From assembly GCA_022842325.1 (NCBI GenBank), contig JALHPU010000015.1, positions 1 to 64,000 on the forward strand: a stretch of DNA of 64,000 nt, read 5' to 3'. The DNA comes from Sulfuritalea sp. (lineage in GTDB: Bacteria > Pseudomonadota > Gammaproteobacteria > Burkholderiales > Rhodocyclaceae). The notes beneath the pieces are model-generated. The model saw nothing but the letters and a program-made list of their open reading frames with translations, searched no databases and was not told the origin of the DNA. A program made the translations under genes and the position numbers. Shown one piece after another: positions 2,195 through 24,541 of this stretch. Position 1 is the stretch's first letter. Every line of letters starts with the position of its first letter.

Positions 2195-2330
2195 CCGGGT
2201 GTCGTGGTAGGCCACCGGTGGTTTCCTGGCAACTCAGTTTCGATGGCTCCTGTGCGGCAGCGAACTTGAAGGATTCAATTTCGGCTTTGTGCCCTTATGT
2301 AAAGCTTTGCATAAGTGCCCTTTGCTGCCT
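2195..2330. repeat. Degenerate repeat, copy A; resembles an unoccupied RIT target site
   Basis: Bases 2195-2310 align without gaps to 20915-21030 (88 of 116 bases identical by my count). The alignment runs up to the left end of the RIT element. From 2309 the sequence GCATAAGTGCCC plus TTGC instead matches the outer right end and right flank of that element (24221-24237). Copy A therefore looks like the repeat without the element. No coding capacity was recognised. The stretch 2127-2525 holds otherwise only the hairpin and a possible -10 (TATACT, 2511-2516) unusually close to the czcI start. Confidence 0.6.
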
Positions 2331-19328: not shown

Positions 19329-20916
19329 GGCCTATTGTGTTGAAAAACTCCTGGACATGCCATAGGCATTAATGATATGATTATGGCATTGTTTAGGAGG
19401 ATGCATTGCCATGATGGGTCGTCAAGCAACGGGTCGTGAGCAGCTGTTCTACACCTTCAGCATGGAAGACCACGTTCCGGAGGATCATCTGCTCCGGGGC
19501 ATTCATCAGTTTCTCGACCTGAGTTCCTTCCGGAAACACTTGGAACCGTTCTACAGCCCGGTCGGGCGACCCTCGATTGATCCCGAGTTGATGATCCGCA
19601 TGCTGATCGTCGGCTACTGCTTCGGGATTCGTTCAGAGCGGCGCCTGTGCGAGGAAGTCCATCTCAACCTGGCTTATCGCTGGTTCTGCCGGCTGGGCCT
19701 GGAAGATCCGGTGCCGAATCACTCGACGTTCTCCAAGAACCGGCACGGTCGCTTTCGTGACAGCGAGGCTTTTCGCCATTTGTTCGAAGGCGTCCTTCAG
19801 CGCTGCATGGTCGAAGGGCTGGTACGCGGCGAAGGCTTTGCGACCGACGCCAGCATTGTCAAGGCCGATGCCCAGCGGCAGAGTGGCGTACCAGGAAATG
19901 AGCCTATTGACTGGGGCAACCCGGACGAGGCCACTCGACCGGTGCGCGAGTACCTTGCGGCATTGGAGGAGACGAATGATCCGGTTGCGCCGCGTAAATC
20001 CATCTCGCGGACAGATCCTGCGGCCTCCTGGACTTGTGCTCCGGGCGGTCCGGCCTTCTTTGCCTACTCGACCAACTATCTGATTGATCTCAAGGCCGGC
20101 ATCATCGTCGACGTCGAAGCGTCGGCCGTCAATTCGGCAGCCGAGGTAAATGCTACCAAGGCGATGATAGAGCGGGTCGAGAACAAATTCGACCTGAAGC
20201 CGGAACGCTTGGTCGGCGATACCAACTACGGTTCGGCCGCCATGCTCGGCTGGCTGGTCGATGAGAAGCAGATCGAGCCGCATGCGCCGGTTTGGGACAA
20301 GTCCGAGCGTGAGGATGGAACATTCTCGTCCAGCGAGTTTGAGTGGAATGCGCAGACCAACGAATACTGCTGCCCGGCAGGCAAGGTGCTTCGCTCCAAT
20401 TGGCGTCCCTTCAAGAATCCCCGCACACGTATTACGAAGGTGGACACCATCGTCTATCGCTCAAGCCAGTTCGACTGCACCAAATGCCCGATGAAGAGCC
20501 AGTGCTGTCCGAACACGCCGATTCGCAAGATCGCCCGCAGCATCCATGAGGACGCGCGTGATGTGGCTCGCGCCATCGCGACAACCGATGCCTACGCGCA
20601 GTCACGCAAGGATCGAAAGAAGGTTGAGATGCTGTTCGCTCATCTCAAGCGCATCCTGAAACTCGACAAGTTGCGATTGCGTGGCTTCAGCGGTGCGGAA
20701 GATGAGTTCTTGCTTGCAGCAACCGTGCAGAATTTACGAAGAATGGCAATGTGGTTGATGCAAAATGCACCAAAACCAGAACTGATCCCCGCATAACAGC
20801 GGGTTGGAGGCGTGTCGCCTTCAGAATCTCACCATCAACTTCGCCTGCACTTCGGTTTCTCCATAGCCCGCCTCATCTGCCAAAAATTTAAACCGACTTT
20901 TTCAACAGAATAGGCC
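19329..20916 (+). mobile_element. IS1182-like insertion sequence
   Basis: One transposase gene is enclosed by inverted repeats 19329-19350 and 20895-20916 (22 bp, two mismatches; core TGTTGAAAAA). The outermost 8 bp (GGCCTATT / AATAGGCC) may be a palindromic target instead of the element, so the true ends may be 19338 and 20907. No clear direct target duplication is seen. The right end abuts the degenerate repeat copy B, so the element is inserted within or next to that repeat. Confidence 0.75.
19411..20796 (+). CDS. IS1182-family DDE transposase
   Basis: A 461-residue transposase with an N-terminal DUF772-type DNA-binding region (GRPSIDPELMIRMLIVGYCF; FSKNRHGRF) and an RNase H-like DDE domain: ATDASIVKADA (first Asp), GDTNYGSA (second Asp) and KKVEMLFAHLKRIL (Glu). 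A Cys-rich insertion (FDCTKCPMKSQCCP) is typical for this family. The gene is intact and begins with tandem ATGs at 19411 and 19414 after AGGAGG. It fills the element defined by the flanking inverted repeats, so it is probably still active. Confidence 0.9.
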   Translation: MMGRQATGREQLFYTFSMEDHVPEDHLLRGIHQFLDLSSFRKHLEPFYSPVGRPSIDPELMIRMLIVGYCFGIRSERRLCEEVHLNLAYRWFCRLGLEDPVPNHSTFSKNRHGRFRDSEAFRHLFEGVLQRCMVEGLVRGEGFATDASIVKADAQRQSGVPGNEPIDWGNPDEATRPVREYLAALEETNDPVAPRKSISRTDPAASWTCAPGGPAFFAYSTNYLIDLKAGIIVDVEASAVNSAAEVNATKAMIERVENKFDLKPERLVGDTNYGSAAMLGWLVDEKQIEPHAPVWDKSEREDGTFSSSEFEWNAQTNEYCCPAGKVLRSNWRPFKNPRTRITKVDTIVYRSSQFDCTKCPMKSQCCPNTPIRKIARSIHEDARDVARAIATTDAYAQSRKDRKKVEMLFAHLKRILKLDKLRLRGFSGAEDEFLLAATVQNLRRMAMWLMQNAPKPELIPA

Positions 20917-21034
20917 GGGTGCTGCGGTAGGCCAACGGCAGCTACCTGGCACCGCAATTTCAATGGCTGCTTCGCGGCGGTGAACTTGAAGGATTGGATT
21001 TCGGGTTCGTGCCCTTATGCGGAACTCCACATAA
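20915..21034. repeat. Degenerate repeat, copy B, between the IS and the RIT element
   Basis: Gapless homologue of 2195-2314. It ends in a perfect hairpin: GTGCCCTTATG (21009-21019) and CATAAGGGCAC (21030-21040), the right arm of which runs into the left inverted repeat of the RIT element. The stretch 20797-21189 contains the IS tail, this repeat and the RIT left end, and no gene. Confidence 0.6.
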
Positions 21035-21066
21035 GGGCACTTATGCTGACCTCCCGATTATGTGGA
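21035..21066 (+). repeat. RIT element left terminal inverted repeat
   Basis: Thirty-two bases, matching the reverse complement of 24201-24232 except at one position (C versus T at the 20th base). It overlaps the right arm of the copy B hairpin by six bases. Confidence 0.9.
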
Positions 21067-21077
21067 ATGGTATGAAT

Positions 21078-21098
21078 GCCAGGCTGCCAAAGCCTGGC
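21078..21098. repeat. Perfect hairpin in the left subterminal part of the RIT element
   Basis: GCCAGGCT, 5-base loop, AGCCTGGC. It lies between the left inverted repeat and the first recombinase gene, and could be an accessory protein-binding site or a barrier to read-through transcription from outside. Confidence 0.5.
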
Positions 21099-21189
21099 TG
21101 CGAGGTGGTTTTCAGGTATTGATGTGACAGCAAGGTCGACATAATTTCTGCGGTCGTCTGAAGTAGTGGTTCTACTTCAGGAGACCGTT

Positions 21190-22149
21190 ATGAACCAAAT
21201 CACTCTGCAACAGGCCGCGCCAAGGGCGGGGCAATCTGAGGCGCTCTCGGACTGCATCATCGAGGAGCTGCGCCGTTACGACGAACACCTATGCGACGTG
21301 CGCGGGTTGGCCGCAGGGACGCGGAGCCATCGGTGTCTGATTGTGGGACGCTTCCTGCATCAGAAGTTCGCGGGTTGCCCTGTCGATATTGCCAAGCTAC
21401 ACCCCGAGGACGTGCGCCAGTTCATTGCCGACCAACTGGACGTACGTCGGACACCATCCAACGCGTCGCAGTTGGCGGCCGCATTGCGTAGCTACTTCCG
21501 TTACCGGACGACCTGCGGCGATCAGGTCGGATCAGTGATGGCGGTAATCACGAATCCTGTTCACTGGAAGCTGGCGTCATTGCCGCGCGCGCTCAAGCCC
21601 GACGAGATCGAGCGCCTGTTGAATTCCTTCACTGCTGTGCATCGCTGGCCGAAGTACGGCTATGCCATCGTTCGTTGCGCACTGGACATGGGACTGAGGG
21701 CTGGTGAAATCGCGAACCTCATGATCAGCGACATCGACTGGCGTTCTGGGACGGTAACGCTGCGGGGAACGAAATCCCTGCGTCAGGACATCCTTCCATT
21801 GCCGATGGAAACCGGGCAGGCGTTGGCCGACTATCTGGAACATGAACGCCCGCTCACCAGCAATCCAGCGGTCTTCGTCCGATGCCTGGGGTGGCGTGAT
21901 CAGCCCATTACGTCGATGGCGATCCAGAAGGTGATCAAACGAGCCTGTTGCCGAATTGGTCTGATGCATTTCAGCGCGCATTCGCTGCGCCACACTCTGG
22001 CATGTCGTCTTGTGGAGAACGGTAGTTCGCTCAAGGAAGTGGCTGATGTACTGCGGCACCGTTCGCTGAACACCACCCTGATCTACGCCAAGCTCGATAC
22101 GCCGAAACTGTCCGCCGTACCGTTGCCCTGGCCGGGGAGCGGATCATGA
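21190..22149 (+). CDS. RIT tyrosine recombinase A
   Basis: A 319-residue site-specific recombinase. The catalytic set is visible: Arg170 (MGLRAGEI), Lys195 (RGTKSLRQ), His264 and Arg267 (HSLRH), His290 (LRHRS) and nucleophile Tyr299 (LIYAKLD). The N-terminal part (residues 20-125) is the SAM-like core-binding domain. ATG 21190 has AGGAGA upstream. Its TGA overlaps the next ATG by 4 bases. It would cut and join DNA at the element ends together with the two other recombinases. Confidence 0.9.
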   Translation: MNQITLQQAAPRAGQSEALSDCIIEELRRYDEHLCDVRGLAAGTRSHRCLIVGRFLHQKFAGCPVDIAKLHPEDVRQFIADQLDVRRTPSNASQLAAALRSYFRYRTTCGDQVGSVMAVITNPVHWKLASLPRALKPDEIERLLNSFTAVHRWPKYGYAIVRCALDMGLRAGEIANLMISDIDWRSGTVTLRGTKSLRQDILPLPMETGQALADYLEHERPLTSNPAVFVRCLGWRDQPITSMAIQKVIKRACCRIGLMHFSAHSLRHTLACRLVENGSSLKEVADVLRHRSLNTTLIYAKLDTPKLSAVPLPWPGSGS

Positions 22150-23120
22150 GCCGGCGCATCAGCCTGCAGACAAGGATCGATGACTTTCTTGCCGAGCGCC
22201 GTCGCCTTGGATTTGAGTTGCGGTCGCGGGATACCCTCTTGTCTGGCTTTGCGCGCTACGTGGCCAGCCGACATCACCGCGGAGCACTGACCGTCGAACT
22301 GATGGCGGATTGGGCACGGCACGACAAGAGAAACCGCGAAACACCGGGCACATGGGCTCGTCGACTGGAGAGGGTGCGGCTATTTGCCCGATATCTGAGT
22401 CAGTTCGAACCGGATACCGAGGTGCCGGACGAATCGATCTTTGGGCCTGTACCCGGTCGCGTGGCGCCGCACATCTACCGCGAAGACGAGATCGTCGAAT
22501 TGCTGGCGGCGGCTCGCCAACTCGGACCGCGCAACAGTTTGCGCCCGGCCACCTACGAGGCGCTATTCGGTCTGATGGCATCGAGCGGACTGCGTGTGTC
22601 CGAAGCCATTCACCTGCGCGATGCCGATGTTGATTTCAAAACCGGGATGCTGACCATACGGCAAACCAAGTTCGCCAAGTCTCGGCAGTTACCCATGCAT
22701 CCAAGTACGGTGGAGGCGATGGCGCGCTATCGGCGGGAGCGTGTGCAGCAGGTTCCATCCACACCGGACACACCGTTCCTTGTCAGTAGTCGCGGTCGTC
22801 GCCTGGGGCAAGCGCTCAGCGCCCGCCAGGCTCACCGCGTCTTCACTGCACTACGTAACAGTCTCGGTTGGGTCAATCGCGGCGCGCACGATGCGCCGCG
22901 ATTGCACGACCTGCGCCATACCTTTGCCGTCCGGCGCATGATGCTCTGGCATGCCGATGGCACCGATATCGAGCAGATGATGCTGGCGCTATCCACCTAC
23001 ATGGGCCATGCCAAGATTTGCTACACGTATTGGTACCTCACGGCCGTACCGGAATTGATGGCTCTTGCCGGTGGCAAGTTTGAGCGCTTCGCCGATCTTT
23101 CGGGGGATTGCGATGCGTAA
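22146..23120 (+). CDS. RIT tyrosine recombinase B
   Basis: A 324-residue recombinase with Arg150 (SSGLRVSEAI), Lys175/178 (QTKFAKS), His254 and Arg257 (HDLRHTF), His288 (YMGHAK) and Tyr297 (TYWYL). It begins inside the stop of recombinase A and ends 8 bases inside recombinase C, so the three are translationally coupled. The fixed order and overlap suggest that the three proteins act as one complex. Confidence 0.9.
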   Translation: MSRRISLQTRIDDFLAERRRLGFELRSRDTLLSGFARYVASRHHRGALTVELMADWARHDKRNRETPGTWARRLERVRLFARYLSQFEPDTEVPDESIFGPVPGRVAPHIYREDEIVELLAAARQLGPRNSLRPATYEALFGLMASSGLRVSEAIHLRDADVDFKTGMLTIRQTKFAKSRQLPMHPSTVEAMARYRRERVQQVPSTPDTPFLVSSRGRRLGQALSARQAHRVFTALRNSLGWVNRGAHDAPRLHDLRHTFAVRRMMLWHADGTDIEQMMLALSTYMGHAKICYTYWYLTAVPELMALAGGKFERFADLSGDCDA

Positions 23121-24132
23121 GATCAAGCAACCCAAGGCACCGCCCTCATTCGCCGCGCTCGTGCAAACCTACTTTGCCGAGTATCTGACCCAACAGCGGG
23201 CGCTCAGCCCGCAGACCATCGCCGCCTACCGGGACGCATTCGTGCTATTCCTCAACTTTGCAGAGTCACGCCTGGGCAAGTCACCGACTGCCATGGCGCT
23301 GGCAGACATTACGCCAGCGCTGATCATCGCCTTCCTCGACCACCTGGAACGTCAGCGACACAATTCCGTGCGTAGTCGAAATGCGCGTCTGACGGCCTTG
23401 CGATCGTTTCTGAAGTTTGCGGCCCACCGGGATGTGTCGTCTCTGGGAGCGATTGAGCGTGCGTTGGGTGTGCCCGTGAAACGCTTCGAACGCCAGATGT
23501 TCGAGTATTTGTCGCGCGAGGAGATGCTGGAGGTGATCGACATGCCCGATGCAACCTGGGTGGGCCAGCGGGATCATGTGCTGTTCCTGCTGCTTTACAA
23601 CACCGGGGCGCGCGTGTCGGAGATCATCAGCGTCAAGGTCGGCGAGGTGGTACTTGACGAAGGTGCCTCCTGCGTCCATCTACATGGCAAGGGTCGCAAA
23701 CAACGCAGCGTTCCGCTGTGGCACGCTACCGTAAAGACCATCCGGGCCTGGTTAAAGTTGAATCCACAGTTCGATGCAGCCTCTCCTTTGCTGCCAACCC
23801 GCAACGGGGTTGCGATGTCGCGTTCATCGGTCGCAAAGCGACTGGCGTTGGCAGTATGCGAGGCGGCCACAACATATCCCAATCTGAAGAAGAAGCGGGT
23901 TTCTCCCCATACCATCCGCCACACCACGGCGATGCATCTGCTGCAAGCCGGCGTGGACATCAGCGTAATCGCGCTTTGGCTCGGCCACGAAAGTCCTGTA
24001 ACCACCCATGGCTACGTCGAGGCTGATCTGACGATGAAGGAGCGCGCCTTGGCCAGGCTTCACGAACCGGATGCCAAAATCCAGCGCTACCGGGCACCAG
24101 ACTCGCTGATCGACTTCCTGAACGCGCTGTGA
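23113..24132 (+). CDS. RIT tyrosine recombinase C
   Basis: A 339-residue recombinase with Arg167 (NTGARVSEI), Lys193 (HGKGRKQR), His266 and Arg269 (HTIRH), His292 (WLGHES) and Tyr301 (THGYVEA). It is the XerC-like member and has a longer C-terminal tail than the other two. The internal ATG at 23113 was chosen because it overlaps the previous stop by only 8 bases; the upstream frame extension lies within gene B. It ends 68 bases before the right inverted repeat. Confidence 0.9.
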   Translation: MRKIKQPKAPPSFAALVQTYFAEYLTQQRALSPQTIAAYRDAFVLFLNFAESRLGKSPTAMALADITPALIIAFLDHLERQRHNSVRSRNARLTALRSFLKFAAHRDVSSLGAIERALGVPVKRFERQMFEYLSREEMLEVIDMPDATWVGQRDHVLFLLLYNTGARVSEIISVKVGEVVLDEGASCVHLHGKGRKQRSVPLWHATVKTIRAWLKLNPQFDAASPLLPTRNGVAMSRSSVAKRLALAVCEAATTYPNLKKKRVSPHTIRHTTAMHLLQAGVDISVIALWLGHESPVTTHGYVEADLTMKERALARLHEPDAKIQRYRAPDSLIDFLNAL

Positions 24133-24200
24133 TTATGCGGACATCGAAATGCGCGCCCGCCCCGTGTCATCAGCGGTTGGCGCTCGTTTCGTATCCCGAA

Positions 24201-24232
24201 TCCACATAATCGAGAGGTCAGCATAAGTGCCC
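24201..24232 (-). repeat. RIT element right terminal inverted repeat
   Basis: Thirty-two bases, inverted copy of 21035-21066 with one mismatch. Its outer 12 bases (GCATAAGTGCCC) and the following TTGC one base beyond also occur at 2309-2325 in the unoccupied repeat. Confidence 0.9.
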
Positions 24233-24541
24233 ATTGCAGACCTTCAGCCTGTTACTTGTTGTATGGCTGGTAGCAAAGTACAGCAGCCGTTCCAACTGAT
24301 TGCTCACCATCAACACTTTGGCCAGAACGGCCATTGGACGCTTGCAGCTTGAGGGGCAGCAACAATGCGTATTGCCGCCGTTCATCAAATCACCGGAAAA
24401 AAATCCTGCGTGACCAATCTGCGCGGCAGCCTATCCAAAATCGCTACTCACCCTTCGTGCCAAAAACAGGCATACGGGTATCGCTATTGCTATGGTCTGC
24501 AAGCGAATGAAAAGATGACCTTCTGAGAGAGCCAACGGTAC
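24233..24541. other. Non-coding stretch right of the RIT element
   Basis: No gene, RNA or strong hairpin was seen. It includes phrases such as GGCCAGAACGGCCATTGGAC resembling the decayed repeat DNA on the other side of the element. Confidence 0.4.

Follow-up and report, generated by a model that had tools for sequence, protein, structure and literature searches.

A 20-bp palindrome placed 6 bp outside the end of RIT elements, and its probable solo footprint in a Sulfuritalea genome

The window analysed here, a 64,000-nucleotide stretch of a Sulfuritalea genome, contains at 21041-24226 an element with three tyrosine recombinase genes that run in the same direction: ritA (21190-22149, + strand; 319 aa; PF00589, E 3.9e-31), ritB (22146-23120, + strand; 324 aa; PF00589, E 4.1e-20) and ritC (23113-24132, + strand; 339 aa; PF00589, E 9.5e-29). 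Neighbouring genes overlap by 4 bp (ritA/ritB) and 8 bp (ritB/ritC), and inspection of the translations by eye found the residues R, HxxR, H and Y in RitA, RitB and RitC. The element is bounded by a left terminal repeat (21041-21066, + strand), made up of an outer arm TTATGCTGACC, 6 bp and an inner arm TTATGTGGA, and by a right terminal repeat (24201-24226, - strand); with the 6-bp spacers counted in, the terminal inverted repeat matches at 31 of 32 bp. RIT (recombinase in trio) elements, reportedly described by Van Houdt and colleagues in 2009 and 2012 and by Ricker and colleagues in 2013, likewise have three adjacent tyrosine recombinase genes with short overlaps, a length of about 3.2-3.5 kb and a terminal inverted repeat. 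Because three PF00589 reading frames with short overlaps occur together with the catalytic residues and with a terminal repeat close to 28-34 bp, the window element is a RIT element. Within its own genome RitB has one full match; RitA and one other protein match it weakly.

The RIT is part of a compound arrangement, S-palindrome-S'-RIT-S, in which S denotes the 6-bp spacer GTGCCC and S' its reverse complement GGGCAC. A repeat unit, X, forms the target (20915-21014, + strand) and ends in the palindrome-side outer spacer S (21009-21014, + strand). There follow a 20-bp palindrome, TTATGCGGAACTCCACATAA (21015-21034), the inner spacer S' (21035-21040, + strand), the RIT itself and the RIT-side outer spacer S (24227-24232, + strand), so that the module of GTGCCC, palindrome and GGGCAC spans 21009-21040.

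A second copy of the repeat, here called copy A, lies at 2195-2314 and is related to 20915-21034, as the preliminary description of this DNA had recognized. The alignment is gapless from 2194 past 2314 and scores 114, against 27 for the best of 300 shuffles; a second comparison gave E 3.1e-22 and 77 % identity. Also present, as that description had stated, is GCATAAGTGCCC with TTGC at the far right end of the element, where the bases GCATAAGTGCCCATTGC occupy 24221-24237 and agree with copy A at 16 of 17 positions; past GTGCCC-nTTGC the right flank of the RIT diverges from copy A. The proposed crossover within or next to CATAAGTGCCC would fall in its 6 bp GTGCCC, the same bases that the termini of the element were correctly said to share with the target.

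Copy A consists of unit X (2195-2294, + strand; related to 20915-21014), which ends in a first GTGCCC (2289-2294, + strand), a 20-bp palindrome TTATGTAAAGCTTTGCATAA (2295-2314), a second GTGCCC in direct orientation (2315-2320, + strand) and a further repeat unit, Y (2321-2393, + strand). It can thus be read as X-GTGCCC-palindrome-GTGCCC-Y, with the module GTGCCC-TTATGTAAAGCTTTGCATAA-GTGCCC at 2289-2320. The palindromes of copy A and of the occupied copy are equal in size and position, and the size and ends of the former, which are those of RIT-linked palindromes, mark it as a probable RIT footprint. Both repeat units also occur without a palindrome: elsewhere X ends in GTGCCC followed by unrelated DNA, with one genome (L051, G011) agreeing with copy A at 54 of 54 bases as far as GTGCCC, and Y is preceded by unrelated DNA and starts with GTGCCC, as in L210 (G014), which has a single GTGCCC and 95 % identity over 81 bp. 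In L212 (G016), which has 81 % identity over 67 bp, a single GTGCCC connects X with Y. Twelve further repeat copies, picked from 25 listed places because they reach GTGCCC, were aligned, and 12 of 12 have a single GTGCCC and no palindrome.

In the best model of these sequences, the palindrome-free copies with one GTGCCC would be the real empty targets. The preliminary description had taken copy A for the repeat before insertion. Since palindrome-free copies of X and of Y exist, and copy A already holds a 20-bp palindrome with GTGCCC on both sides, we reject that role for copy A and prefer to see in the supposed empty site a palindrome footprint within the same target. Across the genus, X ending in GTGCCC and Y starting with it have many different partners (2195-2393; L051, L068, L210, L222, L227), so that GTGCCC looks like a joint of intergenic mosaics. 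The repeat consensus had no match in the plasmids searched, and the flanks of four insertions from the genus gave no joint-spanning match among the matches listed for 31 genomes. That the 120-bp repeat might be the end of an IS21 or IS66 element is a guess.

The spacing of the palindrome recurs in other RITs. Among 11 related loci, eight had both ends, and in all eight a 20-bp palindrome stood on the outside of a RIT end, 6 bp away from it; the remaining three were incomplete or ran into the end of a contig. A wider census covered 88 loci, namely the best 80 of 293 from genome contigs and eight plasmid loci, of which 24 had no ends that could be found, 13 were cut by the contig without a palindrome in view, and 51 were others. 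We scored the 49 RITs in which both ends were present and each was bordered by no less than 32 bp of flank. In 40 of these 49, a 20-bp palindrome lies beyond a RIT end at a distance of exactly 6 bp, compared with 0 of 1280 trials on shuffled flanks; the choice of ends gave a 6-point preference to a palindrome, in an identical procedure for real and shuffled flanks, and the census includes near-duplicates (L112/L113 and L156/L157). Two more palindrome-bearing RITs, L124 and L169, are cut on the other side and bring the total to 42; the palindrome is on the ritA side of 22 of these RITs, on the ritC side of 18 and on both sides of two. The palindrome-bearing taxa are mostly Pseudomonadota and also include Draconibacterium, Kibdelosporangium, Streptomyces and an Acidobacteriota metagenome-assembled genome. 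No palindrome was found in nine of the 49, six with sound ends (L135, L144, L146, L147, L170 and L190) and three with doubtful ends (L111, L171 and L181), which indicates that the palindrome is not always needed or kept.

Two side observations concern whole elements. Palindromes lie at both RIT ends in L118 (the same element as L017), L129 and L206. Several contigs (L121, L123, L149, L178, L180 and L020) are almost exactly one RIT long and end at the spacers or a few bases from them; these could be collapsed repeats or circles.

The spacers and arms follow a similarly regular pattern. The outer 6-bp spacers are identical direct repeats in 30 of the 42 palindrome-bearing loci and agree in at least five of six bases in 33; permuted outer spacers gave a mean of 3.0 identical pairs and a maximum of nine. 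The palindrome-side S itself varies, with 27 different sequences among the 42 loci. S' is the exact reverse complement of the palindrome-side S in 27 of 42 loci and of the RIT-side S in 26; exceptions to the rule are thus the 12 loci with unequal outer spacers and the 15 in which S' is not the reverse complement of the palindrome-side S. An inner arm was placed at offset 17 in all 42 RITs, the offset being the best match to TATG among offsets 13-20 with ties assigned to 17. The palindrome arms agree with the inner arm of their own element at 3.3 of five variable positions, compared with 2.9 of five for their own outer arm and 2.1 of five for the inner arms of other elements.

Insertions in IS66 allow the side of the palindrome to be compared with the direction of the RIT genes. 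The comparison drew on 46 insertions with a palindrome on one side, 40 from the census and six added by hand from 11 Sinorhizobium, Agrobacterium and Croceicoccus copies; the other five were excluded, namely L198, whose far flank could not be clearly assigned to IS66, L202, L203 and L208, which were rearranged or showed no palindrome, and L206, which has a palindrome at each end. Thirteen of the 46 were assigned to IS66 by a simple sequence rule, the R-K-N motif, and in these 13, which are not all independent, the palindrome was downstream of the tnpC break in 13 of 13, with the RIT genes running with tnpC in seven and against it in six. Around the site, L199 and L201 have the same tnpC sequence, which belongs to a damaged copy of the gene; their RITs point in opposite directions, with the palindrome on the same side.

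We propose that the insert would leave as a circle with a junction that runs RIT-right, S, palindrome, S', RIT-left. Such a junction would form one long, near-perfect palindrome with two mirror-image tyrosine recombinase cores, each made of an arm, 6 bp and an arm; the junction predicted for the window RIT is 84 bp long, with 39 of 42 base pairs palindromic. S would be the 6-bp crossover sequence and S' its reverse complement, and the palindrome would be delivered with the element. Either core could cross over with a target that bears a similar 6 bp. Because the two cores would be mirrored, a fixed palindrome side combined with a free gene direction is what the circle junction predicts: the target would set the side of the palindrome, and the RIT genes could lie in either direction. 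A crossover between the inner core and the RIT-side core would remove or invert the RIT, and its removal would leave a solo palindrome, as S-palindrome-S or S-palindrome-S'. Copy A (2289-2320) would be such a solo palindrome within the same repeat target, probably derived from a RIT of a different subtype. From these arrangements we infer circle formation, inversion, excision and movement of the RIT, and we consider it probable that the scheme as a whole is correct, that is, the compound insert S-palindrome-S'-RIT-S, a circle with two mirrored cores and copy A as a solo footprint.

Solo palindromes are not confined to copy A. A search of the genus with the GTGCCC pattern found eight sites in six of 31 genomes, the window RIT and seven solo palindromes; among the seven, direct spacers occur only in copy A and the other six are S-palindrome-S', with inverted spacers. 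The RIT-linked palindrome of L016 escapes this pattern because its S' is one base short. A TCGGCC pattern gave 31 sites in 20 of 399 genomes of the order. When one locus per genome was read, 14 of 20 were solo and six of 20 lay next to a RIT-type end, after one of seven marked as RIT-adjacent by a script (L252) proved false by eye. Reversed-pattern controls gave 0 matches, and a search of one other genus with the palindrome pattern found five sites in two of 18 genomes. Besides the GTGCCC class, the genome of the window itself has TCGGCC-class palindromes (C34:32887, C26:11723, C32:9264 and C34:19586). One solo palindrome (L242) lies upstream of an rpe-like gene; of this locus, a sister genome matches the downstream part only. 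The right flank of the window RIT at 24390-24454 is a reversed copy of DNA that borders a solo palindrome of the same genome, L008 (score 58, best of 200 shuffles 24), and L009 has the same sequence.

Shortened elements were also seen. Three of the six RIT-adjacent TCGGCC loci (L239, L241 and L246) are mini-RITs of 339-394 bp that have kept an adjacent palindrome and in which tblastn found no match to Rit proteins; another mini-RIT, L044, is 442 bp long, is without a palindrome and has no Rit genes to be seen. The palindrome of copy A differs from that of the window RIT and is one base off a solo palindrome in another genome (G022:C107), so the most likely origins of copy A are a visit by a RIT of another subtype, which left it as a footprint, or the insertion of a solo palindrome in trans.

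The second of these origins can be extended to solo palindromes in general, which would then be the smallest non-autonomous elements, inserted by Rit proteins acting in trans, rather than excision scars. The direct 6-bp duplication around copy A is what a fresh insertion would show; the gene-less mini-RITs of 339-442 bp make action in trans likely; and solo palindromes outnumber RIT-linked ones among the TCGGCC loci read, a mostly solo class that would also fit palindromes moving or existing without a RIT. Against this, a 20-bp body between two crossover sites would presumably leave little room for circle formation, and six of the seven solo GTGCCC sites are S-palindrome-S', unlike a simple insertion with duplication. 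We regard an origin of the solo palindromes by insertion in trans as possible though doubtful. A point against the proposed circle scheme is that, among the loci compared, none was seen with a RIT, with a solo palindrome and empty.

Where the palindrome comes from is best addressed in IS66. On the Sinorhizobium meliloti plasmid pSymA (L114), an IS66 tnpC gene is interrupted by GAGAAA-RIT-TTTCTC-palindrome-GAGAAA. Joining the two flanks with a single GAGAAA gives a sequence that is matched at 216 of 216 bases in 14 of 20 plasmids among the matches listed; 94 records have some match to this target, and the uninterrupted full-match sites are free of the palindrome. Because the empty target has no palindrome, comparison of the occupied and empty records demonstrates that the palindrome came in with the RIT there, the full empty site being that of an alphaproteobacterial IS66 target, distinct from the window locus. 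The preliminary description had treated the hairpin as a property of the target, and at this site it belongs to the insert instead; its account of the locus is thus upheld for the relatedness of the copies, the crossover and the shared ends, and superseded for the empty site and the target hairpin. It had also named RITs at unrelated sequences as evidence against its reading; such RITs occur, in IS66 tnpC and in many other flanks, and the rule of a 20-bp palindrome between 6-bp spacers (6-20-6) still holds there.

Other IS66 insertions point the same way. In four of four cases tried (L112, L113, L114 and L116), joining the flanks leaves tnpC with an uninterrupted reading frame, with a 6-bp target that was chosen by the analyst and later seen in native form in relatives of L112 and L113; the upstream tnpC portion of L113 is itself damaged. 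These relatives, 95 % and 93 % identical to the two targets, read CCGTAA and GCGTAA, whereas the inserts in L112 and L113 both carry the S' TTTCGG, which suggests that S' is carried along and that the outer spacers are of target type or mixed. L112 and L113 have the same RIT and the same palindrome in different targets, and the Sinorhizobium RITs of L198, L199 and L200 are 99.2-100 % identical to that of L114, with the same palindrome in different targets; some Sinorhizobium copies (L198, L202, L203 and L208) are rearranged at one end or are without the palindrome. Near-identical copies in different targets are comparative evidence that RITs may be mobile. In L228 (2501-2532; the same in L231), two 3' halves of IS66 were seen by eye to be joined head to head through spacer, palindrome and spacer, as if palindromes mediate rearrangements. 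Sequence comparison thus shows the architecture of RITs and, where the target is IS66, that palindrome and RIT arrived together.

These data bear on the alternative that the palindrome is a resident, REP-like repeat chosen as a target by RITs, which would make copy A truly empty. The existence of solo palindromes (seven of eight GTGCCC sites in the genus and 14 of 20 TCGGCC loci read) and the resemblance between palindrome arms and RIT arms speak for it, yet the 216 of 216 bases at the empty L114 target contradict it for that target; moreover, palindrome and RIT jointly interrupt one tnpC frame in four of four joined reads, the same palindrome accompanies the same RIT into different targets, and the 12 further repeat copies are palindrome-free. 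We consider a resident palindrome improbable. Hairpins are common between genes, but a chance or unrelated hairpin beside the element, for example a transcription terminator, is exceedingly improbable: the length of 20, the 6-bp distance, the conserved ends and the matching spacers recur in 40 of 49 RITs, compared with 0 of 1280 shuffles, and the reversed-pattern controls gave 0 matches.

Taken further, the delivered palindrome and its two cores allow a broader reading, which we put forward tentatively and with somewhat less than even confidence. RITs would be tyrosine recombinase transposons with a palindromic circle junction of about 84 bp and two mirrored cores; the palindrome would read the polarity of the target, the gene block would insert or flip either way, and the 6-bp spacer would be inherited as a tag. 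Solo palindromes left by excision would be a record, in several phyla, of earlier visits by RITs. By analogy with integron cassettes, the RIT hairpin may be used as a folded single strand.

Parts of this arrangement have counterparts in other mobile elements. REP-targeting insertion sequences also place a mobile element next to a palindrome, which in their case is resident at the target; the palindrome of RITs is brought in, as the IS66 evidence indicates, and no resident palindrome was found at the empty IS66 target (216 of 216 bases). Elements of the Tn916 type have a mismatched coupling sequence. RITs resemble them in having a short overlap, possibly unequal in element and target, that is left at the ends; we know of no palindromic second core in Tn916-type elements, nor of a decoupling of their orientation from the target as in RITs. 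For Tn916, excision with a heteroduplex spacer is described in the portion of PMC10214605 consulted. The same portion describes SE (strand-biased circularizing integrative elements) and GInts as having several tyrosine recombinases, a 6-bp footprint, short inverted repeats and few selected targets. The 6-bp footprint is shared with RITs, in which exact outer repeats were found in 30 of 42. SE/GInts differ in having four conserved genes, including a small non-recombinase; here ritA, ritB and ritC occupy 21190-24132 of 21041-24226 and no fourth gene of that type was found. No palindrome module is described for SE/GInts in that portion, whereas the RITs studied here have one.

Published accounts of RITs, in the excerpts covered, give parts of this structure. 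RIT ends are said to vary, with no convincing repeats besides the inverted repeat and an overlapping palindromic sequence (excerpt of PMC3414803); one RIT was found in an IS66 tnpA (excerpt of PMC2864759); and the target specificity and empty site of RITs are listed as not tested (excerpt of PMC10214605). Compared with the present results, these excerpts do not give the role, position or origin of the palindrome, the 6-bp spacers, the target rule or an empty site. The palindrome rule was not found in the literature searched, which did not extend to Ricker 2013, Nielsen 2017 and most subscription papers; 'RIT' is used for terminators in the excerpt of PMC12306157.

RITs are widespread, and their ends, targets and products are described as undefined or untested in the parts of the literature covered. 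The 6-20-6 rule gives exact RIT borders, a target test with a real empty site and a testable circle junction, and it makes it possible to search for solo footprints and for mini-RITs without genes. The presence of several recombinases might be explained by the two kinds of arms together with the two mirrored cores. Overall, the comparison defines the boundaries of these little-studied elements and their probable mode of insertion, and it provides a general structural rule for RITs.
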